From positions 958,903 to 1,022,902 of the forward strand of contig JAVSMP010000001.1 in the NCBI GenBank assembly GCA_032027145.1: a DNA stretch of 64,000 bases, in the 5' to 3' direction. Positions within the stretch are counted from its first letter, which is position 1, and each line of letters opens with the position of its first letter. This DNA comes from Ignavibacterium sp. GTDB taxonomy: Bacteria; Bacteroidota; Ignavibacteria; Ignavibacteriales; Ignavibacteriaceae. The position numbers and the translations under genes were made by a program. The notes below the pieces were generated by a model. It searched no databases. It was not told where the DNA came from and worked only from the letters and a program-made list of their open reading frames with translations. Positions 1,356-49,287 of the stretch are shown here, in pieces.

Positions 1356-1940
1356 ACCAATCTTCTCCTATATTTTATTCTAACAAATATTAAGCCTAAA
1401 ACGTATCTTAAAATTATGTTAAAAATAAAGCCGTAACAAATTGTGGCGGGTAAAATGTATTATGCTTAAGAAAGAATTACAAAGAAAAAATATTTTACAA
1501 AGCCTTTTAAGTAATGTAAGCTAAATAATCGTTGGTAAAAATACTTTTAAATCGTTTTATAACAATAGAGTAATTTATTTTCTGTTTTTTGTATTGAAAT
1601 AAATAAGGCGATCCAAAGACCGCCTTATTATTCTTAAATGTTGGATGTTCAGTTTTCTAAAACATTAATGCATTTATTGAACATATATGATTATAGATTG
1701 ATCGTTACTTTAACAGTATCATTTTCTTAGATGAAACAAAATCACCACTTTGTATACTATATATATAAACACCACTTGGAAGATTGCTTGCATTGAATTC
1801 AACTTCATAATTTCCTGCTGGTTTTATCTCATTTACTAATGTTCTTACTTCTTCACCAAGAGAATTAAATATTTTCAAAGATACTTTTCCATCATCCTTT
1901 AATGAATATTTTATTATTGTACTTGGATTAAATGGGTTGG
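1207..1940 (-). repeat. Constant block L1: T9SS tail / intergenic / signal peptide
   Basis: About 735 bp nearly identical to 3185-3918 at an offset of 1978. In transcription order it holds the C-terminal sorting tail of the 1705-3333 gene, a terminator hairpin, a 349-bp intergenic stretch, and the ribosome binding site and signal peptide of the next gene (start 1355). Identity falls off sharply on both sides, where the protein bodies diverge. Seen directly by aligning the two stretches. Confidence 0.9.
1602..1629 (-). terminator. Hairpin terminator after 1705-3333 gene
   Basis: Nine-base stem AATAAGGCG / CGCCTTATT with a 10-base loop, followed on the minus strand by TATTTC. It lies about 75 bases past the stop at 1705 and is repeated at 3580. 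Confidence 0.6.
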
Positions 1941-8687: not shown

Positions 8688-9770
8688 TTATTTATTCGGT
8701 TTAGGATTAAAAGTTAATTGTCTTTTTCCCCCTGTTATTAAATCCAAAATCCACAATGTTCCATTTTCATACGTCCAAGAATTATTATTTACCAAATAAA
8801 CCACTTTATCACGAATAGGGGAAATACTATATAAGTAATCCATTAGCTGATCAGAAAGTAGTTTTTGATTTGTGCCCAATGAGTCCATTATCCATAGACA
8901 ACCTGCACTCCAAAATGTAATTTTCTTTTCATAAACATCTTGTGGACAACTGTCATCTAAAGTGTTGTTTGTTAATCTACTTATATTATTTCCGTTTTTA
9001 TCCATTACAAATATTTCAGGTGCGCCGACTCCAATATATCTTGTATGAGCTATTTTATTGTTATCTATTGTCCAACTTGGCATTCTTATTTCACCTTTAT
9101 TGGGATCATAGGCTATTCTGGTTTTTTGAGAACCATCTGATTTCATTTTCCAAATAAATTGCATTCCATTAGGGCTGTCGGTATTTGAATCATAAGCAAT
9201 CCACTGTCCATCCGGACTCCAGCTTGGTAAAAAATTTCGTCCTTCAATCATCAATTGCATAATTGTCGTAGTATCAAATGTTTCACCATTAAATTTCATT
9301 TTAAAGATATGCCGCTCATCCCCTATTGGTACTACAAATGCTATCCATTCCCCATCAGGTGACCAAACAGGATTTAAAAGTTTATAAGGTAATATCCTGC
9401 GCATATTTGTTCCATCAGTGTTTATTAGCCAAAAACCAGATTGTTGGGAATACCATTCAATATTTTCAATATTCATTCCAATACTCTCAATAATCTCTAT
9501 TTCACTTTTATTTTGTTCTTTACTATATGTGATTATTACTGTTCTTTGATCATCTGAAATTTTAAACTCTGAAATGTTTGGTAAATTTTTATATAGTTGC
9601 GGTTGATTTAGTGCAATTTTATCTTGTCTAAAAATTATCACAATAGATGATTTATCATTTGTAATATTTACTAATTTATCACCGATCCAAAAGTGATCGT
9701 TATTATTATAGTTTTGAGCTTGTACAAAAAAAGTTACAAATAAAAACAAGAATATTATTAAATTTTTCAT
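8688..9770 (-). CDS. TolB/WD40-like beta-propeller exported protein
   Basis: 360 residues with a signal peptide (MKNLIIFLFLFVTFFVQAQ). From about residue 110 it carries TolB-type blades: WLINTDGTNMRRI, NPVWSPDGEWIAFV (W136), PSWSPDGQWIAYD (W184), MPSWTIDNNKIAHT and EIFVMDKNGNNISRLT. The pattern F/W-S-P-D-G-x-x-I-A is diagnostic of this propeller. No enzymatic domain is attached, unlike S9 peptidases that use the same fold. GGAGAA precedes the ATG. It is probably periplasmic or surface-associated, with an unknown partner, and belongs to the row of minus-strand propeller genes at this end of the window. Confidence 0.85.
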   Translation of the reverse strand: MKNLIIFLFLFVTFFVQAQNYNNNDHFWIGDKLVNITNDKSSIVIIFRQDKIALNQPQLYKNLPNISEFKISDDQRTVIITYSKEQNKSEIEIIESIGMNIENIEWYSQQSGFWLINTDGTNMRRILPYKLLNPVWSPDGEWIAFVVPIGDERHIFKMKFNGETFDTTTIMQLMIEGRNFLPSWSPDGQWIAYDSNTDSPNGMQFIWKMKSDGSQKTRIAYDPNKGEIRMPSWTIDNNKIAHTRYIGVGAPEIFVMDKNGNNISRLTNNTLDDSCPQDVYEKKITFWSAGCLWIMDSLGTNQKLLSDQLMDYLYSISPIRDKVVYLVNNNSWTYENGTLWILDLITGGKRQLTFNPKPNK

Positions 9771-9837
9771 CTTTTATTCTCCATTTTATTAAGTAGTTCT
9801 TTGGATTGAAAAAAGACTACATATTTATTAAGTTTAC

Positions 9838-9937
9838 TCTACAAACAAAACAGCATATTGTTGTTTCAATACAACATCAATCCAAGTGCTAAGTTGTTTG
9901 TTATCTCGCCGTCAATGTGGGCAAACACATTGACGGT
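9838..9937 (-). other. Structured intergenic element (two-part hairpin)
   Basis: On the minus strand an 11-bp perfect hairpin (9936-9909, stem CCGTCAATGTG, loop TTTGCC) is followed by a second closed structure. ACAAACAA near 9903-9896 pairs with TTGTTTGT near 9846-9839, enclosing AGCA/TGCT and a TGTTGT/ACAACA hairpin. There is no T-tract after the first hairpin, so a plain terminator is not an obvious fit. Position between two co-directional genes resembles the elements at 43112 and 46203. Confidence 0.45.
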
Positions 9938-9939
9938 AT

Positions 9940-9954
9940 TTATTTTCCAGTCAT
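9940..9954 (-). other. Four-codon mini-ORF with strong Shine-Dalgarno
   Basis: After the stop of the 9979-11154 gene comes AAAGGAGG, six bases, then ATG-ACT-GGA-AAA-TAA, ending just before the 9909-9936 hairpin. Same layout as 8660-8674. It could be a leader peptide or chance. Confidence 0.35.
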
Positions 9955-9978
9955 AAAAATCCTCCTTTCTTAAAAACT

Positions 9979-11154
9979 TTAGTATTCCCCAACTTTAATA
10001 TTTCTAGGTAGGTTTGAAAAATAATTTGCTGAGTCATATGTTACTGTCAAATAATCAACGATTTTTCCATTTAATGCATCAACTTTTACAACACATGCTT
10101 TGTTTCCATCCTTCATCTGAAAAGAAACAACAGGAGTAATGAACAATGTTCTATTATCCTTAGCAACTGCAATTTTATCAGAATAGTATAAATCATTTAT
10201 TAATACACTATTTGAATTCATTTTTACATCATATTTCCACACCTTGCCAGTACTTGCAAAACCATAAAGATACCCTCCCGGATCACTTATATAAATTGAA
10301 TTACCATCAGGACTCATTGCTAATTTTGAAAATGCACCAACTTCAAATTCTTTGATAATTGTTTTTTTAAGTAGATCAATTACAAAAAAAGAACCATACC
10401 CTCCTAACCCTCGCCAGTTCCAAGCAGTACAAAAAAGATATTTATCGTCTTTAGATATTAAAATATCTGAGTTAGCTAATCCTGAATAACTTAAATTTTT
10501 AAACACAACTATTGAATCGACAGTTTTAAATAAGTCTAAATCAAAAATTCCAAAACCAATTAAATTATTATTAATATCATACATTGGATAATAAACTATA
10601 TTATAGATATTAGCAGCGGCAATTCCTGTGTTGGTTTCCCCAATTGAAATCGTATCTTGTGTTAAGAAACTCATTGACGTTCTATCGTAAACTTGAATTC
10701 CTTTACTTCCAAAAGCAATGAGTAAATTATTATTACTATTCATTGTAAGTGCATAGTAACCGGGAAATAGTCTAATATACCGATTTATTCTTAATGGTTT
10801 TAAACCTATTTCATATAAATCATGTATGTAACTTGGCGACCCATGCCAAATTGAATATAGTCTATCGTTCTCAGGTGAAAACTCAACATTCCAAGGTGCA
10901 GCTGGAGTGGTAATTAGACTATCCATTAGCTGAAATGAGTTAGCATTATAAATCCTAAGACCTCCCTTTGTACCATCTATAGATAAGAAAATTGCTGCAT
11001 TTTCTGGTAATGGTTGTAGAGGTGGAACATAGATATTTTCCAAATCATCACAAGATGCAAAGATTATAAACAGCACTGCGATGAAAATCATTCCCAAACA
11101 AATTCTGTAAAAGCTATAATATTTGACCGCGAAGAAAAATTTTTTTTTACTCAT
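9979..11154 (-). CDS. YncE-like beta-propeller lipoprotein
   Basis: 391 residues. An unusually long basic N-terminus precedes the hydrophobic leader (18-33), which ends in the lipobox FASC (Cys35), so it should be a lipoprotein. The body has seven-bladed-propeller features: NVEFSPENDRLYSI, ILISKDDKYLFCT, KLAMSPDGNSIYISD and KIAVAKDNRTLFIT. These S/K-D-x-R/K-x-L/I-Y/F repeats are those of YncE/YVTN-type proteins. Function unknown; probably surface or periplasmic binding. CGGAGGGC lies just before the ATG. A 279-bp divergent region separates it from the DUF5916 gene. Confidence 0.82.
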   Translation of the reverse strand: MSKKKFFFAVKYYSFYRICLGMIFIAVLFIIFASCDDLENIYVPPLQPLPENAAIFLSIDGTKGGLRIYNANSFQLMDSLITTPAAPWNVEFSPENDRLYSIWHGSPSYIHDLYEIGLKPLRINRYIRLFPGYYALTMNSNNNLLIAFGSKGIQVYDRTSMSFLTQDTISIGETNTGIAAANIYNIVYYPMYDINNNLIGFGIFDLDLFKTVDSIVVFKNLSYSGLANSDILISKDDKYLFCTAWNWRGLGGYGSFFVIDLLKKTIIKEFEVGAFSKLAMSPDGNSIYISDPGGYLYGFASTGKVWKYDVKMNSNSVLINDLYYSDKIAVAKDNRTLFITPVVSFQMKDGNKACVVKVDALNGKIVDYLTVTYDSANYFSNLPRNIKVGEY

Positions 11155-42020: not shown

Positions 42021-43070
42021 ATGAAAAAACACAAGCTAATATTTTTATTAATTCTTGTTTCAATTTTTTTACTAATTACAAACTGCAACTCTACTGAACC
42101 ACCCGATGATGAACTTAAACCCGGAAGACGTGATTATGCTTGGACTGTGGATACTTTATTGCCACCGGAATCTCATAGAACTGTGCCGTTTTTTATTTCA
42201 AACTTATGGGGCAGTTCACCTAATGATATGTGGGCAATTTGTCAAGGAGCTTCTCCGCTCATTTTATTGTGGCATTATGATGGAGCAAAGTGGTCGCTTT
42301 ATCCACAACAGCTTGGCAGAGATCTTTTGGGTATTTATGGTTTTGCACAAAATGATATTTGGATTGGCGATGCTGAGAATTCAATCTGGCATTTCAATGG
42401 AAGTATCTGGTCTAAGGCTAAAAGTTTATCTTCTACCGGCTTTGATAGAGTTGGGGTAGAATGTATCTATGGTATTTCTCCAAACAATATTTATGCAGTT
42501 GGAGGTGCAGATCAATTTAATGGGGGCACTGAGTATAAAGGTGTTTTATTGCATTATGATGGAAGTGATTGGAAATTTATTGACATTCCAAATATCAGAG
42601 CTGCATTTTATAATGTAGTTAGGAATATTTTTACAAATGAGTTGGTTATCTATGGATTTAATAGCGATGTGGGGTTTCTTGATAAGCTATTTGTTTATGA
42701 CGGTAAGAATTTTAAAGAAATATATTCCGAGTACAATGAACCTGGACTAAACGAAATGAATGGGGAAGTTTATGTTACTTTAGACGGGAAGATATATAAA
42801 TTTAACAATGGACAATTAGATTTCTGGAAAGATTTTCCTGGAACATCTTTCTTAAATTTTAAAAGCGGAAGAAATGAGAAGGATTTTTTTGGAACAAGTA
42901 TAGAAGGATTGTTACACTTCAATGGTTCTGATCTGCAAGCTATTTATAAAACCTATCCGAAAAATATCGAGTTATATCGAGTATTTATTTTAGAAAATGA
43001 TATTTTTATTTCTGCTTTTGAACCCGATACTCAATTAAAGTTTATAATAAGAGGAAAATTAAAAAACTAA
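42021..43070 (+). CDS. Array lipoprotein A (beta-propeller)
   Basis: 349 residues. The lipobox LLITNC (Cys22) and a conserved segment up to PGRRDYAWTVDTL come from the constant block. The variable body is a propeller of short blades with H-Y/F-D/N-G-x-x-W turns: LWHYDGAKWSLY, IWHFNGSIWSKA and LLHYDGSDWKFI, with I-W/Y-A-I/V-G strands between (SPNDMWAICQG, SPNNIYAVGG). Intact, unlike copy C. Probably surface-exposed; ligand unknown. AAGGGGAA lies just before the ATG. Confidence 0.85.
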   Translation: MKKHKLIFLLILVSIFLLITNCNSTEPPDDELKPGRRDYAWTVDTLLPPESHRTVPFFISNLWGSSPNDMWAICQGASPLILLWHYDGAKWSLYPQQLGRDLLGIYGFAQNDIWIGDAENSIWHFNGSIWSKAKSLSSTGFDRVGVECIYGISPNNIYAVGGADQFNGGTEYKGVLLHYDGSDWKFIDIPNIRAAFYNVVRNIFTNELVIYGFNSDVGFLDKLFVYDGKNFKEIYSEYNEPGLNEMNGEVYVTLDGKIYKFNNGQLDFWKDFPGTSFLNFKSGRNEKDFFGTSIEGLLHFNGSDLQAIYKTYPKNIELYRVFILENDIFISAFEPDTQLKFIIRGKLKN

Positions 43071-43111
43071 TTATAGGAGATAAGGGAGAATTTATATACT
43101 ATAACAAAAAA

Positions 43112-43198
43112 GGAACGGTGCGGCAACACCGTTCCCGAATGTAAATAAATATAGGCTGCTCACCTATTGGGAATAATTTATTCCTATTTTATTTACAT
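43112..43198 (+). ncRNA. Structured RNA candidate, copy 1 (in leader of T9SS gene)
   Basis: Hairpin H1 GGAACGGTG-CGGCAA-CACCGTTCC (43112-43135). Then an 11-bp closing stem P1, ATGTAAATAAA (43139-43149) with TTTATTTACAT (43188-43198). Inside P1 are hairpin ATAGG-CTGCTCA-CCTAT (43151-43167) and hairpin GGAATA/TATTCC (43170-43184). It starts 41 bases after lipoprotein A and ends 45 bases before the next start. It shares layout and loops with 46203-46291, with compensatory pair changes. Confidence 0.6.
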
Positions 43199-43243
43199 CG
43201 AAAACTTAACTAATTGCCAGTTAAAAAAAATGAAAGATTAACA

Positions 43244-44815
43244 ATGAAAAAACTGCATTTTTTATTTCTTGCATTAATTTTACTTATATCTTATTCAATT
43301 AATGCTCAACACATTCACTTTACAAGCCCAACAAATGGGCAAGTAAAGACAGGCTCTGGAACTGGTTCTACAGAATCTACAATACCAGTTAATTTAACCT
43401 ATTATTTTCAAACCTCGGGCAATCCTAACTTAATTGGTTATTACATTAAGTTATTTCCACATCCTTATGGAAATCAGCAATCAAACCAGGGAGACGGTAT
43501 TGCACAATGGTGGTACATTCCTGCCGGAACCTACACCTGGCGCATTGAATTATGGGAAACATATGTCAACCAAGGCTCTTCAAAGAAAGCTGAACAGACA
43601 ATTACTTTTTATGTCAAAAACAATCTATTGTCAGTAAATAATTTTGGTGCTGGTGCAATTAATGTAGATGGACAACAACAAACCCACGGTTATACAACTC
43701 CAAAACTGACTGGTGAAATTTTGCAAGTTGAAGCCATTGATCAAATTTTTAATAATACAAATTATCTTTGGAATCAAAGTGGGATTAACAATAGTGTTTG
43801 GCAAAGAAAAGGGAAAAGTGATCCTGGGTTTTCAAATATTTACAATGCAACAACGAGAAGTTATAATTATACTGTTGCCTCAAATGACAATGGAGCACAA
43901 ATTCAAGCCGCAATGCGTAAAATCGTAAAACCAAATTTTCAAAACAGTTTTGTAAGTTTAGGTAATGGCGGCGTAATAACGGTTAACAACATCCAATATA
44001 ATTCTCCTACCTCTACGTTTGATGTTGTAGAGTTAAATCCAATTACTGCACAGGCAATTGGCGGACTAATTTTAAACGCAATTTATTATTCATTTGATCA
44101 TTGGAGTGACGGCAGTACTTCGGCATATAAAACATTTAATCCGGGCAGCACTACAACTTATACTGAATATTATTAAGGCAAACCTTCTCGTTATGATCTT
44201 AATTTAGGTTATAACTTAAGCCTGCATACAAGTACAGTTGTTGGTGAGCCAATTACTTTATACTGGAATGAACATCCAAACACTAACGTTACCAAATATC
44301 AAATTTGGAGAAAAGAAAAATACAATGGCGTTACCAGCGATCCTCATTTGCTTGCTACTGTTAATCGGGGAACTACATCGTTTACTGATGATGATTTTTA
44401 TTACACCACTATTAAGAATCAGTATATGCTTTATTATGATGTTAGACCTTATTATATAGTAGAAAACTCTTACGCCGATGCACTGTGGATGCCTGTGTTT
44501 GCAGAATATCCATTTTACAAAACAACAGATTCCACTTTAATATTATCATCCGGCTATGATAATTTTATTTCAAATTATCCTAATCCTTTTAATCCTATAA
44601 CTAACATTAGTTACAGTATTAAAGATGCAGGTTTAGTTAACATCAAGGTTTTTGACTTACTTGGACAGCAAGTTGCTGAATTAGTCAATGAAGAAAAAGA
44701 AGCTGGTTACTACTCTATTACTTTTGATGCTTCAAAACTTCCATCAGGTATTTATTTATATACTATTAACTCTAGAAGCTTTATACAAACCCGTAAGATG
44801 TTGCTGATTAAATAA
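43244..44815 (+). pseudogene. T9SS-tail secreted protein, broken by one in-frame TAA
   Basis: ATG at 43244 starts MKKLHFLFLALILLISYSINAQ, a good signal peptide. The frame stops at TAA 44174-44176, but the same frame is open beyond it to 44815, ending in the sorting tail. The intact paralogue (46338-47924) has AAA at that codon (TATTATAAAGGC versus TATTATTAAGGC), so one substitution created the stop. The N-terminal third differs from the paralogue. From about codon 228 (KPNFQNSFVSLGNGG) it lies in the constant block and is nearly identical. The truncated product (310 residues) lacks the secretion tail. Confidence 0.85.
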
Positions 44816-44850
44816 ATACGAAAAAAGAAAGACGCAAGAAGTTAAACGTT

Positions 44851-44878
44851 AAAAGGCACGAGAAATCGTGCCTTTATT
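44851..44878 (+). terminator. Terminator with GAAA loop, copy 2
   Basis: Same GGCACGA-GAAA-TCGTGCC hairpin as at 41737, 40 bases past the T9SS gene end. Confidence 0.8.
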
Positions 44879-44977
44879 ATTTACTGCAGTAAATTTTTAT
44901 CTCTTTGTTGAAACATAATATCTCCTTACTTACGTTTGGGTAGAATTATTCGGGATTTAATTTAAATCGAGGCTTGT

Positions 44978-45133
44978 ATGGGAAACTTTGACACGATATT
45001 TAGCTCACTCTCTGAAAACTCACGCTCTGTTGGAGGAATAAGTTTTATGCTTTTATCCTATACTCTAATCTTACATTTCATTTACAATTTAAATCACTTA
45101 ATAAATTATCTTAAAGTTTTGAAGGGGAATTAG
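44978..45133 (+). CDS. Small ORF ahead of the array lipoprotein, copy 2
   Basis: Identical copy of the 51-codon frame described at 41864-42019, ending one base before the start of lipoprotein B. Same doubts apply. Confidence 0.22.
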   Translation: MGNFDTIFSSLSENSRSVGGISFMLLSYTLILHFIYNLNHLINYLKVLKGN

Positions 45134-45134
45134 A

Positions 45135-46160
45135 ATGAAAAAACACAAGCTAATATTTTTATTAATTCTTGTTTCAATTTTTTTACTAATTACAAACTGC
45201 AACTCTACTGAACCACCCGATGATGAACTTAAACCCGGAAGACGTGATTATAACTGGACAGTAGATACTTTGAAACCAGCTGAAGGTCGTTCAATTCCTT
45301 CGAGAATGTGGGGTGCTGATGCTAATGATGTTTGGGCAGTAGGTCTATCTTATCTTAATGCATATTGTATTTGGCATTATGATGGTAAAACATGGTCAAA
45401 CTACACACCTGATCAATATATGGACCCAAGAGCAATATGGGGAACGAGTATAAACAATATCTGGATTGGAAGTACCGATGGAGCCTTTTGGCATTATGAC
45501 GGTGTAAAGTGGGATAAGTTTTCAGAAACAACAATTCCAAACTATCAGCAATTTATAGTTCAATCAATGTGTGGAAGAAGTGCAAACGAAATATATGCAA
45601 TTGGATTTGCGGATTCTTCAGAGGGTAATTCATTTAAAGCTATAATTATGCATTTTAATGGTGTTAAATGGGAAATAACAAATATACCATCTATAAAAAA
45701 ATCTTTTAAGGAAATTTACTACGATAAAAATGATGATATTTTTTATATATCTGCCTGGGAGTTTAATTCATCTATTGAATCTATTTACAGTTTTGATGGA
45801 CAAAATTTAAATTTAATTTATTCGACTGATAAATTGATATCACTAAGCAATATTGGTCAAGAAATAATATCGATAATAGACTATTCAAAAATATATAAAG
45901 TTAAATCAGGCACTATTGAATTAATAAAAGATTTTTCGGCTACAAGTTTTGCTGGATATTGTTTTGGAAGAAATGAATTAGATATTATTACGGCTAATGA
46001 TGATGGTATTGGACACTTTAATGGTAATGATCTATTAACAATTTATCCTAAATGGAATATTGAACTAAATCGTATAGGTTCCATTATTTTCGAAAAAGAT
46101 TTCTATTATATATGGGAAGACTCATATAAAACTTTTATTGTACATGGAAAACTAAAATAA
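45135..46160 (+). CDS. Array lipoprotein B (beta-propeller)
   Basis: 341 residues. The first 39 residues are identical to lipoprotein A (lipobox Cys22, DDELKPGRRDY). The body has the same blade grammar but different sequence: IWHYDGKTWSNY, FWHYDGVKWDKF and IMHFNGVKWEIT with ANDVWAVGLS, INNIWIGST and ANEIYAIGFA strands. A later half has IYSFDGQNLNLIYST and GIGHFNGNDLLTIYP. Intact. AAGGGGAA just upstream. Followed by the second structured element and the intact T9SS paralogue. Confidence 0.85.
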   Translation: MKKHKLIFLLILVSIFLLITNCNSTEPPDDELKPGRRDYNWTVDTLKPAEGRSIPSRMWGADANDVWAVGLSYLNAYCIWHYDGKTWSNYTPDQYMDPRAIWGTSINNIWIGSTDGAFWHYDGVKWDKFSETTIPNYQQFIVQSMCGRSANEIYAIGFADSSEGNSFKAIIMHFNGVKWEITNIPSIKKSFKEIYYDKNDDIFYISAWEFNSSIESIYSFDGQNLNLIYSTDKLISLSNIGQEIISIIDYSKIYKVKSGTIELIKDFSATSFAGYCFGRNELDIITANDDGIGHFNGNDLLTIYPKWNIELNRIGSIIFEKDFYYIWEDSYKTFIVHGKLK

Positions 46161-46202
46161 TTTAAAGGAATAATGAGTACACAAATATATTCTCCTAAAA
46201 AA

Positions 46203-46291
46203 GGGTAATGGTGCAGCCACACCATTACCCGGGAATGCAAATAAAATTACAGGCTACTCACCTGCTTTGGTATTACCCAATTTATTTGCAT
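46203..46291 (+). ncRNA. Structured RNA candidate, copy 2 (in leader of T9SS gene)
   Basis: H1 GGGTAATGGTG-CAGCCA-CACCATTACCC (46203-46230). P1 ATGCAAATAAA (46235-46245) with TTTATTTGCAT (46281-46291). Inside are CAGG-CTACTCA-CCTG (46250-46264) and a TTGG/CCAA stem (46267-46280). Against copy 1, a T-A pair in P1 becomes C-G, a C-G pair in H1 becomes T-A, and a T-A pair in the inner hairpin becomes C-G, while the 7-base loop CTRCTCA is kept. It ends 46 bases before the next ATG. It lies outside the constant blocks, so similarity is not explained by recent duplication. Confidence 0.6.
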
Positions 46292-46337
46292 TTCTAATTT
46301 AAGAAATGGCAGTAATAATAAAAACAAAGGTACTGTT

Positions 46338-47924
46338 ATGAAATCCCTTAAAATTTTTATTTTCACTGTTCTTTTTATTTCAGTAAGTTCTGAAATATTT
46401 CCGCAATCTTTTTATTTCACTTATTCAGGTCCAACTTCAGTTGTTGTACCTTACAATTCTAATGTTGCAACCGCTACTTATTATTTCACTTACTATAATC
46501 CAGGAAATATCACGTTAATCCGACCCAGACTCACAATTGAGTTTGATGGAACAACAATAGCCGGAGCTATTTGTGAAGGAAACAACATCTATTTACCAGG
46601 AGCGTATAGTTTTAGTTTAACACCTGGCACACATACAATAAAACTTACTTTATCTGATCTGGGGCAGCAATCAAATGATTGTACAGAAGCAAATATTTGG
46701 CAAGAAGTCGAATTTCAGGTAATTGCGTATTTCAAAGTACGAAATGAAAATATATTTGGTGGCGGTTCAATTTATGTGGATAACTACACATCGACAAAAA
46801 CTTCTCCGTATGATAGAACTGCTTACGCCAGTTTTAGTTATGCTATTGGTGCTATTGATCAGGATTACGGCGGATATCATTGGGTATGGAATTCATCAGG
46901 AATAAATAATAGTAAGTGGTTGAGAGAACCAAAAAATTCCGGAGCAATAGATTATTCTTTTAATCGAAACACAACATACACAGTTCAAGCGAATGATAAA
47001 GACACAAAATTAATTGCAGGATTAAGAAAAATAGTAAAACCAAATTTTCAAAACAGTTTTGTAAGTTTAGGTAATGGCGGCGTAATAACGGTTAACAACA
47101 TCCAATATAATTCTCCTACCTCTACGTTTGATGTTGTAGAGTTAAATCCAATTACTGCACAGGCAATTGGCGGACTAATTTTAAACGCAATTTATTATTC
47201 ATTTGATCATTGGAGTGACGGCAGTACTTCGGCATATAAAACATTTAATCCGGGCAGCACTACAACTTATACTGCATATTATAAAGGCAAACCTTCTCGT
47301 TATGATCTTAATTTAGGTTATAACTTAAACCTGCATACAAGTACTGTTGTTGGTGAACCAATTACTTTATACTGGAATGAACATCCAAACACCAGCGTTA
47401 CTAAATATCAAATTTGGAGAAAAGAAAAATACAATGGTGTTACCAGCGATCCTCATTTACTTGCTACTGTTAATAGGGGAACTACATCGTTTACTGATGA
47501 TGATTTTAATTACACCACTATTAAAAATCAGTATATGCTTTATTATGATGTTAGACCTTATTATATAGTAGAAAACTCTTACGCCGATGCACTGTGGATG
47601 CCTGTGTTTGCAGAATATCCATTTTACAAAACAACAGATTCCACTTTAATATTATCATCCGGCTATGATAATTTTATTTCAAATTATCCTAATCCTTTTA
47701 ATCCTATAACTAACATTAGTTACAGTATTAAAGATGCAGGTTTAGTTAACATCAAGGTTTTTGACTTACTTGGACAGCAAGTTGCTGAATTAGTCAATGA
47801 AGAAAAAGAAGCTGGTTACTACTCTATTACTTTTGATGCTTCAAAACTTCCATCAGGTATTTATTTATATACTATTAACTCTAGAAGCTTTATACAAACC
47901 CGTAAGATGTTGCTGATTAAATAA
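46338..47924 (+). CDS. T9SS-tail secreted protein, intact array copy
   Basis: 528 residues. The signal peptide ends near EIFPQ (23). Residues ~25-135 form a beta-sandwich-like region (VPYNSNVATATYYFTYYNPG), and a second domain (140-230) has WNSSGINNSKW. From about residue 233 the protein is shared with the broken paralogue: KPNFQNSFVSLGNGGVITVN, then a FDHWSDGSTSAYKTFNP repeat-like segment, a fibronectin-like part (PITLYWNEHPNTSVTKYQIWRKEKYN) and the sorting tail from about residue 448 (NYPNPFNPITNISYSIKD). Function unknown; probably a surface adhesin-type protein. Confidence 0.87.
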   Translation: MKSLKIFIFTVLFISVSSEIFPQSFYFTYSGPTSVVVPYNSNVATATYYFTYYNPGNITLIRPRLTIEFDGTTIAGAICEGNNIYLPGAYSFSLTPGTHTIKLTLSDLGQQSNDCTEANIWQEVEFQVIAYFKVRNENIFGGGSIYVDNYTSTKTSPYDRTAYASFSYAIGAIDQDYGGYHWVWNSSGINNSKWLREPKNSGAIDYSFNRNTTYTVQANDKDTKLIAGLRKIVKPNFQNSFVSLGNGGVITVNNIQYNSPTSTFDVVELNPITAQAIGGLILNAIYYSFDHWSDGSTSAYKTFNPGSTTTYTAYYKGKPSRYDLNLGYNLNLHTSTVVGEPITLYWNEHPNTSVTKYQIWRKEKYNGVTSDPHLLATVNRGTTSFTDDDFNYTTIKNQYMLYYDVRPYYIVENSYADALWMPVFAEYPFYKTTDSTLILSSGYDNFISNYPNPFNPITNISYSIKDAGLVNIKVFDLLGQQVAELVNEEKEAGYYSITFDASKLPSGIYLYTINSRSFIQTRKMLLIK

Positions 47925-48243: not shown

Positions 48244-49287
48244 ATGAAAAAACACAAGCTAATATTTTTATTAATTCTTGTTTCAATTTTTTTACTAATT
48301 ACAAACTGCAACTCTACTGAACCACCTGATGATGAACTTAAACCCGGAAGACGTGATTATGCTTGGACGGTGGATACATTAGTTGGTCTAAATAATCCAA
48401 GAGATAGAATGTGGGGAAGTTCTCCAAATGACGTCTGGGCAACAACTACGAGCAACTGGGCAAATTCATTTTCTCATTTTGGTGGAGGGTCATGGTTCTC
48501 GTACGGAGTTCCAGGAATAAATCAACCTAACGCTATTTATGGTTTTTCCAGCAGCGATGTTTTTGTTGGTGATGAAAATGGTAAGATATGGCGGGGGCCT
48601 AACTGGAAATTATTTGCAGAAATTACAAAAGACGGGCATAAAAATATTGGCTTTAATAATATTTGGGGAATCTCTTCAAATGATCTTTATGCAATTGGGG
48701 CTTATCCGGACACTGTTATTGGTGGGTATAATATAACGTTGGTAGCGGCACATTATTCAAATAATAATTGGTCGATATTAAATAAGAAAAACATCATTGG
48801 CATTGGATCTAAAATATATAAAGATTCTAATGATATAATTTAAATACTTACCTATAAATTAGGTGGTGGATTAACTCCTGACAGTTCTATTATTTATGAA
48901 TACGATCAAGAAAATTTCAAGAAAATCTATTCTAGTATTTGGGTCGGAGGGGAACAAGCTAATATAAGCTTAATTAATAGCGAAGTTTATTTTATTCTTG
49001 GCAGTAAAATTGCCAAAAGAGTTAATGGGCAGTTCCAAACTTTTTTGCAAGTAAGTAATTCTAATTTCTATCAGCGTATTTGGGGAAGAAATTCTAAAGA
49101 TATTTTTCTTTTAATGACAGATGGTTTAGCACATTACAACGGAACAGATATTCAATATTTATTTTATTTCAACAAAGTACCAAGAACTCAAATTTATGGA
49201 GTTGCCTTATTTGATAAAGATGCATTTTTTCTTGTTTATGAAAGTCAAACAGGTTTGAGTTTTGTTTATCACGGTAAACTAAATTAA
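48244..49287 (+). pseudogene. Array lipoprotein C (beta-propeller), broken by one in-frame TAA
   Basis: Starts with the constant leader (lipobox Cys22) and reads 199 codons to TAA at 48841-48843 (DSNDII-stop). The same frame then continues without interruption as ILTYKLGGGLTPDSSIIYEY to 49287, ending VYHGKLN as lipoproteins A and B do (IIRGKLKN, VHGKLK). The full frame is 348 codons, matching A (349 residues) and B (341). Hence a single nonsense mutation broke an otherwise complete gene. The body is a third divergent propeller (SPNDVWATT, ISSNDLYAIGA, LAHYNGTDIQYL). Confidence 0.85.

Follow-up and report, generated by a model that had tools for sequence, protein, structure and literature searches.

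A family of structured, probable leader RNAs between lipoprotein genes and exported-protein genes in Ignavibacteria

Why should two neighboring genes for exported proteins each be preceded by the same multihelix fold? The question arises from a 64,000-nucleotide stretch of DNA from Ignavibacterium sp. (GenBank assembly GCA_032027145.1, contig JAVSMP010000001.1, positions 958,903 to 1,022,902 of the forward strand), called the window below, in which two copies of an RNA-like element stand in an array of gene pairs. In each pair, gene A encodes a lipoprotein, gene B encodes an exported protein with a C-terminal sorting tail of the type IX secretion system (T9SS), and the element lies between them. 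Comparative sequence analysis demonstrates a structured element with a conserved Shine-Dalgarno (SD) sequence, with predicted long-range pairings in one of its two types (type A), and with an A-like gene on one side and an exported-protein gene on the other. We describe its fold, its distribution and its gene context, and then weigh what it may do.

RESULTS

Two array copies share one architecture

Both copies lie on the plus strand. In copy 1, hairpin H1 (43112-43135; strands 43112-43120/43127-43135), with 9 bp and the 6-base loop CGGCAA, is followed by the 11-bp stem P1 (43139-43198; strands 43139-43149/43188-43198), which encloses hairpins P2 (43151-43167, loop CTGCTCA) and P3 (43168-43186). 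Copy 2 is built in the same way, with an 11-bp H1 (46203-46230; strands 46203-46213/46220-46230; loop CAGCCA) and a P1 (46234-46292; strands 46234-46245/46281-46292) that encloses P2 (46250-46264, loop CTACTCA) and P3 (46267-46280). Folding z-scores were -6.83 for copy 1 and -6.20 for copy 2, and none of 200 dinucleotide shuffles matched either fold; the minus strands of both copies also folded well.

The initial annotation had described this shared architecture, with compensatory changes in three helices (T-A to C-G in P1, C-G to T-A in H1 and T-A to C-G in P2), a preserved inner loop CTRCTCA, a location outside the near-identical, homogenized blocks of the array, and a distance of about 45 bases to the start codon. 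All of these points were borne out for both copies, and the gap between P1 and the start codon (43244 and 46338) is exactly 45 bases in each. The description was incomplete in that it missed the SD-like upstream leader, two long-range pairings, which we call PK1 and PK2, and a third element in the window. The leader of copy 1 (43076-43111) lies 3′ of the stop codon of gene A1 and contains SD-like GGAG (43076-43079) and GGGAG (43084-43088) motifs; no mini-open reading frame (mini-ORF) was found in it. That of copy 2 (46165-46208) contains the SD sequence AAGGA and the mini-ORF MSTQIYSPKKG* (46173-46208). In copy 2, both pairings are possible: PK1 would join TGAGTA (46174-46179) to TACTCA (46255-46260) in the P2 loop with 6 bp, and PK2 would join GCCA of the H1 loop (46216-46219) to TGGC (46307-46310) with 4 bp. 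In copy 1, a 5-bp PK2 is predicted between GGCAA of the H1 loop (43122-43126) and TTGCC (43214-43218); this one was read by hand, as in the PK2 test described below a wrong start codon had made the copy 1 row end too early.

The element belongs to a covarying family within one bacterial class

Relatives were sought with covariance models built from the two copies (R1), from 15 members (R2) and from 76 sequences (R3). R1 matched 21 of 59 genomes, this one included, at E ≤ 0.1. Within the order, R2 at E ≤ 0.001 matched 55 of 164 genomes and R3 matched 59, with 1 to 7 matches per matching genome (R3). At the same R2 threshold, 39 of 391 genomes in a sample of the class matched, 33 from this order and six from outside it, and 15 of 395 in a sample of the phylum, all 15 from this order. 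The family has so far been found only in this bacterial class. A strict DNA pattern for type A found 10 loci among 84,980 species genomes; six were in records named Ignavibacteriales, Ignavibacteriae, Melioribacter, Stygiobacter or Bacteroidetes/Chlorobi group, and the other four in records named only Bacteroidia, Bacteroidetes or Bacteroidota. Viral contigs gave no match to this one pattern. From 93 matches we kept 85 elements after dropping eight on the reverse strand, of which seven overlap true elements and one overlaps a weak match that was kept (L075:3291-3371). The 85 are not all independent, since they include array copies in G006, L121/L122 and L115/L116.

The helices covary across this set. 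Among 89 distinct rows, double-sided changes occurred in all 25 modeled pairs, compared to 16.9 in shuffled controls, and the covariation score was 0.437, compared to 0.161 for shuffled and at most 0.120 for slid alignments; this alignment was fitted to the structure and includes a few shadow rows, and P3 is outside the model. We also applied a tree-based null (120 simulated alignments) to 80 sequences and 97 columns, from which the eight shadows and L075:3291-3371 had been removed and in which identical rows were merged. With our own R-scape-like script, standing in for R-scape, and a model-fitted alignment, nine pairs reached E < 0.05, and all nine fell within the structure (seven in H1, one in P1 and one in P2). 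Selection on RNA structure, which the initial annotation had proposed from two copies, is thus upheld by many further matches that covary and are linked to genes. The two inner hairpins hold for both array copies but not as a trait of the family: when inner regions were folded alone, at least two hairpins formed in 40 of 81. Many elements also have a conserved, apparently unpaired A-rich segment (AAAnWTAA-like) 5 to 12 nucleotides (nt) past P1, for which an A-minor contact with P1 is possible.

No Rfam 15 family reached its threshold on the elements. At gathering thresholds the whole window yielded only a tRNA, the best permissive match to the copy 1 region was RatA (27.9 bits, E = 0.055, below its gathering threshold of 49), and 14 related loci had no match at E ≤ 1.

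Predicted pairing of loops with flanking sequence

In type A, the bases directly 3′ of the leader SD complement the P2 loop (PK1), with pairs such as GAGUA/UGCUC, UGAGUA/UACUCA, GAGAA/UUCUC, UGAAGUA/UGCUUCA and UAACCA/UGGUUA. Across 52 elements, leaders scored 10.33 with their own loops and 8.67 (standard deviation, 0.24) with swapped ones, and none of 2,000 swaps scored as high; such swaps, here and for PK2 below, leave shared ancestry in, yet the loop-partner pairs differ between genera. In a set of 51 elements, 37 reached a PK1 of 4 bp and a score of 9, compared to 22.5 elements on average and 32 at most with swapped loops. Both sets include a few type B rows, and the regular expression for P2 picked the wrong loop in a few rows of the 52-element set (e.g., L068 and L077). 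When the strand was tested on the 51 elements, the z-score was 7.1 with G·U pairs allowed, 5.9 with Watson-Crick pairs only and 4.9 with A·C allowed instead. PK1 thus gains from G·U and not from A·C, the wobble pair of the minus strand, which favors an RNA read from the sense strand.

PK2 would join the H1 loop to the spacer upstream of the gene B start codon, as in GGCAA/UUGCC, UGGACA/UGUCCA, AUUGCGG/CCGCAAU and AGGCA/UGCCU. For 45 type A elements the score was 10.29, compared to 8.17 (standard deviation, 0.28) for swapped loops, with no swap of 1,000 as high; types were split here by a regular expression, which put L068, whose P2 is of type A, into type B. The best site lay exactly 17 nt past P1 in 10 of the 45 and 10 nt past it in 7. 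The PK1 and PK2 sets omit elements without a recognizable SD, P2 motif or P1 end. Six relatives from elsewhere in the class, which are outside the 52-element and 45-element swap sets and inside the 51-element set, were inspected by eye; a PK1 of at least 4 bp was possible in 6/6 and a 6-bp PK2 in 3/6.

Most leaders carry an SD sequence and, in type B, usually a Pro-Pro reading frame

An SD core was present in 67 of 81 leaders, compared to 21.3 (standard deviation, 3.8) after shuffling. An ORF preceded by an SD occurred in 29 of 81, compared to an expected 13.6 (standard deviation, 3.1), and is not conserved in type A. There, a start codon overlaps the edge of PK1 in 16 of 44 cases, so the mini-ORF is not general in this type. 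In most type B leaders, by contrast, a short ORF, usually encoding Pro-Pro, is present in place of PK1. The motif CCNCCN was found in 21 of 100 unique leaders, in 19 of them in frame with an upstream ATG, giving peptides such as MSPPDKTKSE*, MDRAPPKRKY*, MNKQPPIK* and MILLRCPP*; 17 of the 19 ORFs have at most 13 codons. Their proline wobble positions use all four bases (A, 19; G, 12; T, 5; C, 2). CCNCC might alternatively be a motif that pairs with the SD rather than a pair of proline codons, but the reading frame and the wobble letters argue against this. By its sequence, the type B leader ORF has the codon pattern of translation. In L171 (about 1500-1835, minus strand), an element-like sequence was seen by eye after another gene A; its leader reads TPPIK*, with ACG at the expected start. 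A programmed frameshift was considered because of an A-run before H1 in both main copies and was rejected, as the run is absent from many other elements.

The element usually lies between gene A and a T9SS cargo gene

A gene A homologue, encoding a beta-propeller lipoprotein, lies upstream of 76 of the 85 elements; among the nine without such a match, one had just 60 bases of upstream sequence. Downstream, 52 of 69 judgeable elements had a T9SS sorting domain in the sense orientation no more than 6 kb away. An element counted as judgeable if a tail was found or if the sequence extended 1.5 kb or more past it (16 of the 85 fell outside), and at a range of 6 kb the tail may belong to a later gene (e.g., at L096, L071_5622, L113 and L120). 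Nine elements that came to light only with R3, and that contributed to none of the models, had gene A upstream in 7/9 and a tail downstream in 7/9 (one of them 5.3 kb away). The six elements from elsewhere in the class had gene A upstream in 3/6 and a tail in 4/5 of those with enough sequence. The start codon of gene B lies 44 to 53 nt past P1 in 28 of 47 cases.

Gene A as the sole determinant of the element was rejected. Three of these six elements and nine of the 85 others have no upstream match to gene A, and two A genes of this genome (L169; G000:C1:1208500-1218500) are followed neither by genes with a T9SS tail nor by an element. In L169, a pair of transposase-like genes comes after the second gene A, and an unfiltered R2 search of the locus gave a weak match at 2371-2463 (E = 0.04). 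At L151 (4060-4240), from a Chocolate Pots metagenome-assembled genome, an A-B pair with almost no gap has no element, and the adjacent gene A has one. At L101 and L117 (G006), A genes stand in arrays in which the elements are nearly identical and the B genes truncated, in the order element, B start codon and next gene A, the latter about 240 nt past the element.

Array genes and further elements in this genome

Gene A1 (42021-43070) and gene B1 (43244-44815) flank copy 1, and gene A2 (45135-46160) and gene B2 (46338-47924) flank copy 2, all on the plus strand; the A-B units stand in arrays with copied flanks. A1 and A2 encode lipoproteins by their N termini and had no Pfam match at E ≤ 1. An AlphaFold2 model of A2 (pLDDT 86.4, pTM 0.83) matched beta-propellers, the best being YCF48 (E = 3.6e-9), and A1 is a predicted beta-propeller by homology to it. 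B1 and B2 are exported; B2 has a T9SS C-terminal sorting domain, and in B1 the tail lies in the last part (ORF 44348-44815), an in-frame TAA being present near 44175. Gene A3 (48244-49287) likewise has an in-frame TAA, at about 48841, and no element was found downstream of it. Stops also cut many B ORFs in relatives, which may reflect decay or assembly error.

The third element in the window (9841-9936, minus strand) was found by R3 without filters as a weak match (9835-9938; 30.6 bits, E = 8e-4). It has an 11-bp H1 (9909-9936, loop TTTGCC) and a P1 (9894-9901/9841-9848) whose strands, read by eye, are ACAAACAA/TTGTTTGT. An SD (9961-9968) and the mini-ORF MTGK* (9940-9954) were seen by eye upstream, and neither PK1 nor PK2 was recognized by eye. 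Upstream of the element is a lipoprotein-like gene that matches beta-propellers weakly (9979-11154, minus strand), and downstream is a gene for an exported PD40 beta-propeller protein (8688-9770, minus strand), in which no T9SS tail was found in Pfam at E ≤ 0.01. The link of the elements to T9SS genes, as initially annotated, therefore holds for most judgeable elements but is not absolute: the linkage is to exported proteins, which are mostly but not only T9SS cargo.

Across the 3.67-Mb genome, R1 gave strong matches only to copies 1 and 2 and one weak match that overlaps copy 2. A divergent element elsewhere in the genome (R2 unfiltered, E = 0.0015) precedes the gene for a 1,488-residue protein with a T9SS tail. 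R3 gave no match at E ≤ 1 in 1.2 Mb of this genome, and scanning 1.264 Mb with a descriptor recovered the three window copies only, with none in a reversed control; as all three copies were already known when the descriptor was composed, its result indicates rarity and is no independent discovery. Both scans undercount, because both missed the divergent element inside the scanned stretch.

DISCUSSION

Taken together, these data lead us to favor, as probable, the reading that the element is a cis-acting structured leader RNA between two cistrons, in which ribosome occupancy of the leader sets the fold and hence the expression of gene B. In most cases the element immediately precedes an exported-protein gene, and it probably controls the amount of that protein. 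In the proposed scheme, A, the element and B would be transcribed together. Ribosomes that leave gene A, or that bind the leader SD, would compete with PK1 and open H1, thereby breaking PK2; occupancy of the leader would in this way decide whether a folded state forms near the ribosome-binding site of B, and that state would set the level of B expression. In type B, a pause at Pro-Pro would play the same gating role. More tentatively, the elements may constitute an Ignavibacteria-type intercistronic RNA in which ribosome traffic on the leader switches a double-pseudoknot fold and so sets how much of a surface lipoprotein is made relative to its T9SS-exported partner, the gate being either the pseudoknot at the SD or a diproline peptide that would respond to elongation factor P (EF-P) or translation capacity.

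Several observations weigh against leader-gated control of gene B. Co-transcription is assumed. Pairing of the B ribosome-binding site was seen neither in the sequences inspected downstream of P1 nor in the folds, which end before that site, and no dedicated search was made; a mutually exclusive off-state thus did not emerge. In copy 1, PK1 has at best 3 bp (GAG 43086-43088 with CTC 43159-43161). In type B, PK2 has a weak signal (17 elements; 8.65 compared to 7.34, with 1 of 1,000 swaps as high), part of which comes from array copies of one genome. Some type B leaders have no Pro-Pro (e.g., MIRTLSVK* and MNNSEPIN*), and 2 of the 19 in-frame Pro-Pro ORFs extend into or past H1. Seventeen of the 69 judgeable elements had no T9SS tail, several of them at contig edges or array copies, and curated tail models matched 29 of 57 next ORFs, so that the ORF directly downstream need not be the one with the tail; many next ORFs without a match are cut by stops. 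G·U pairs are unusually rare for RNA in H1, where the first 70 distinct rows gave 8 GT, 635 Watson-Crick and 32 AC cells. Finally, at least five A residues occupy the six bases just 5′ of H1 in 18 of 59 elements, about four times the expectation from a leader A content of 0.45 (calculated by hand), which makes a terminator on the minus strand possible.

The strong H1 with few G·U pairs, the intercistronic position and the short distance to B would also fit a role in mRNA processing or stability, in which the transcript would be cut between A and B, so that the B message would begin with H1, be protected by it and have its ratio to A set in this way, without any sensing. This account leaves the conserved SD, the adjacent PK1, PK2 and the Pro-Pro leader ORF unexplained, and we regard it as unlikely. 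A smaller chance still attaches to a riboswitch or protein-binding leader, in which the double pseudoknot would form a pocket that binds either a metabolite or a protein regulator and thereby controls B. The compact fold with two pseudoknots and the A-rich conserved unpaired bases past P1 would suit such a pocket, but few unpaired bases are strictly conserved, both loops vary yet keep their partners, type B replaces PK1 with a leader ORF, and no common metabolic pathway was noticed among the B proteins.

The A-rich flank also bears on a small RNA from the minus strand, for which H1 and the corresponding U-run would be the terminator. A U-run (at least five of six bases) follows H1 on the minus strand in the same 18 of 59 elements and on the sense strand in none of 59, where an intrinsic terminator was thus not found, and the minus strands fold well. 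The SD and the leader ORF, both on the sense strand, and the behavior of PK1, which gains from sense G·U (z of 7.1, compared to 5.9) and falls to 4.9 with A·C, together favor the sense strand and make a minus-strand RNA very improbable. A DNA-level recombination site or mobile palindrome that shuffles A-B cassettes, which would suit the nearly all Watson-Crick H1 and the arrays with copied flanks, is the least credible of these alternatives given the 1 to 7 matches per genome in a fixed intergenic place, the G·U pairs of PK1, the type B leader ORF and the lack of a viral-contig match to the one strict pattern. A mobile palindrome of the repetitive extragenic palindromic (REP) kind, with many dispersed copies and no fixed context, was rejected on the same copy number and context.

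Leader-gated control has partial counterparts in known systems. The Salmonella mgtL leader ORF contains proline codons whose translation depends on EF-P and controls the downstream gene mgtP, and control operates by transcription attenuation through alternative stem-loops, the mgtL prolines being alternating ones (PMC6460261). Type B resembles mgtL/mgtP in its short proline-codon ORF within a leader RNA and differs in that the leader lies between two genes, the prolines are consecutive, the fold is another one, and regulation is so far a proposal. Attenuators and arrest-peptide leaders of the erm, cat, SecM and MifM type consist of an SD, a short ORF ending beside a hairpin, and then the regulated gene. 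The type B layout is alike; unlike in those leaders, no sequestered B ribosome-binding site was seen here, in folds not searched specifically for one, and type A has a pseudoknot instead of a conserved ORF. SAM-II, SAM-V and preQ1 riboswitches are compact pseudoknotted leader RNAs upstream of a start codon, as these elements appear to be; their topology differs, and no Rfam threshold was reached. REP palindromes, bacterial interspersed mosaic elements (BIMEs) and transposon-derived hairpins are likewise stable intergenic hairpins, but unlike REP/BIME sequences the present elements have few copies, a fixed gene context and a covarying multihelix fold with pseudoknots.

Among the titles and abstract openings of the top matches in the open-licence literature, no similar RNA element was found, nor, among top matches in that literature, which leaves most subscription journals outside, was RNA-level control of T9SS cargo. 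To our knowledge, the regulatory RNAs of this bacterial group have been little studied. We class the elements as a new family of probable cis-regulatory leader RNAs, unusual in having two leader modules that can stand in for each other. For the biology of these bacteria, this means a well-supported structured RNA family without a match in Rfam 15 and an RNA element tied to type IX protein export, whose interchangeable modules, a pseudoknot or a Pro-Pro ORF, would make ribosome-gated RNA folding between two genes directly testable.

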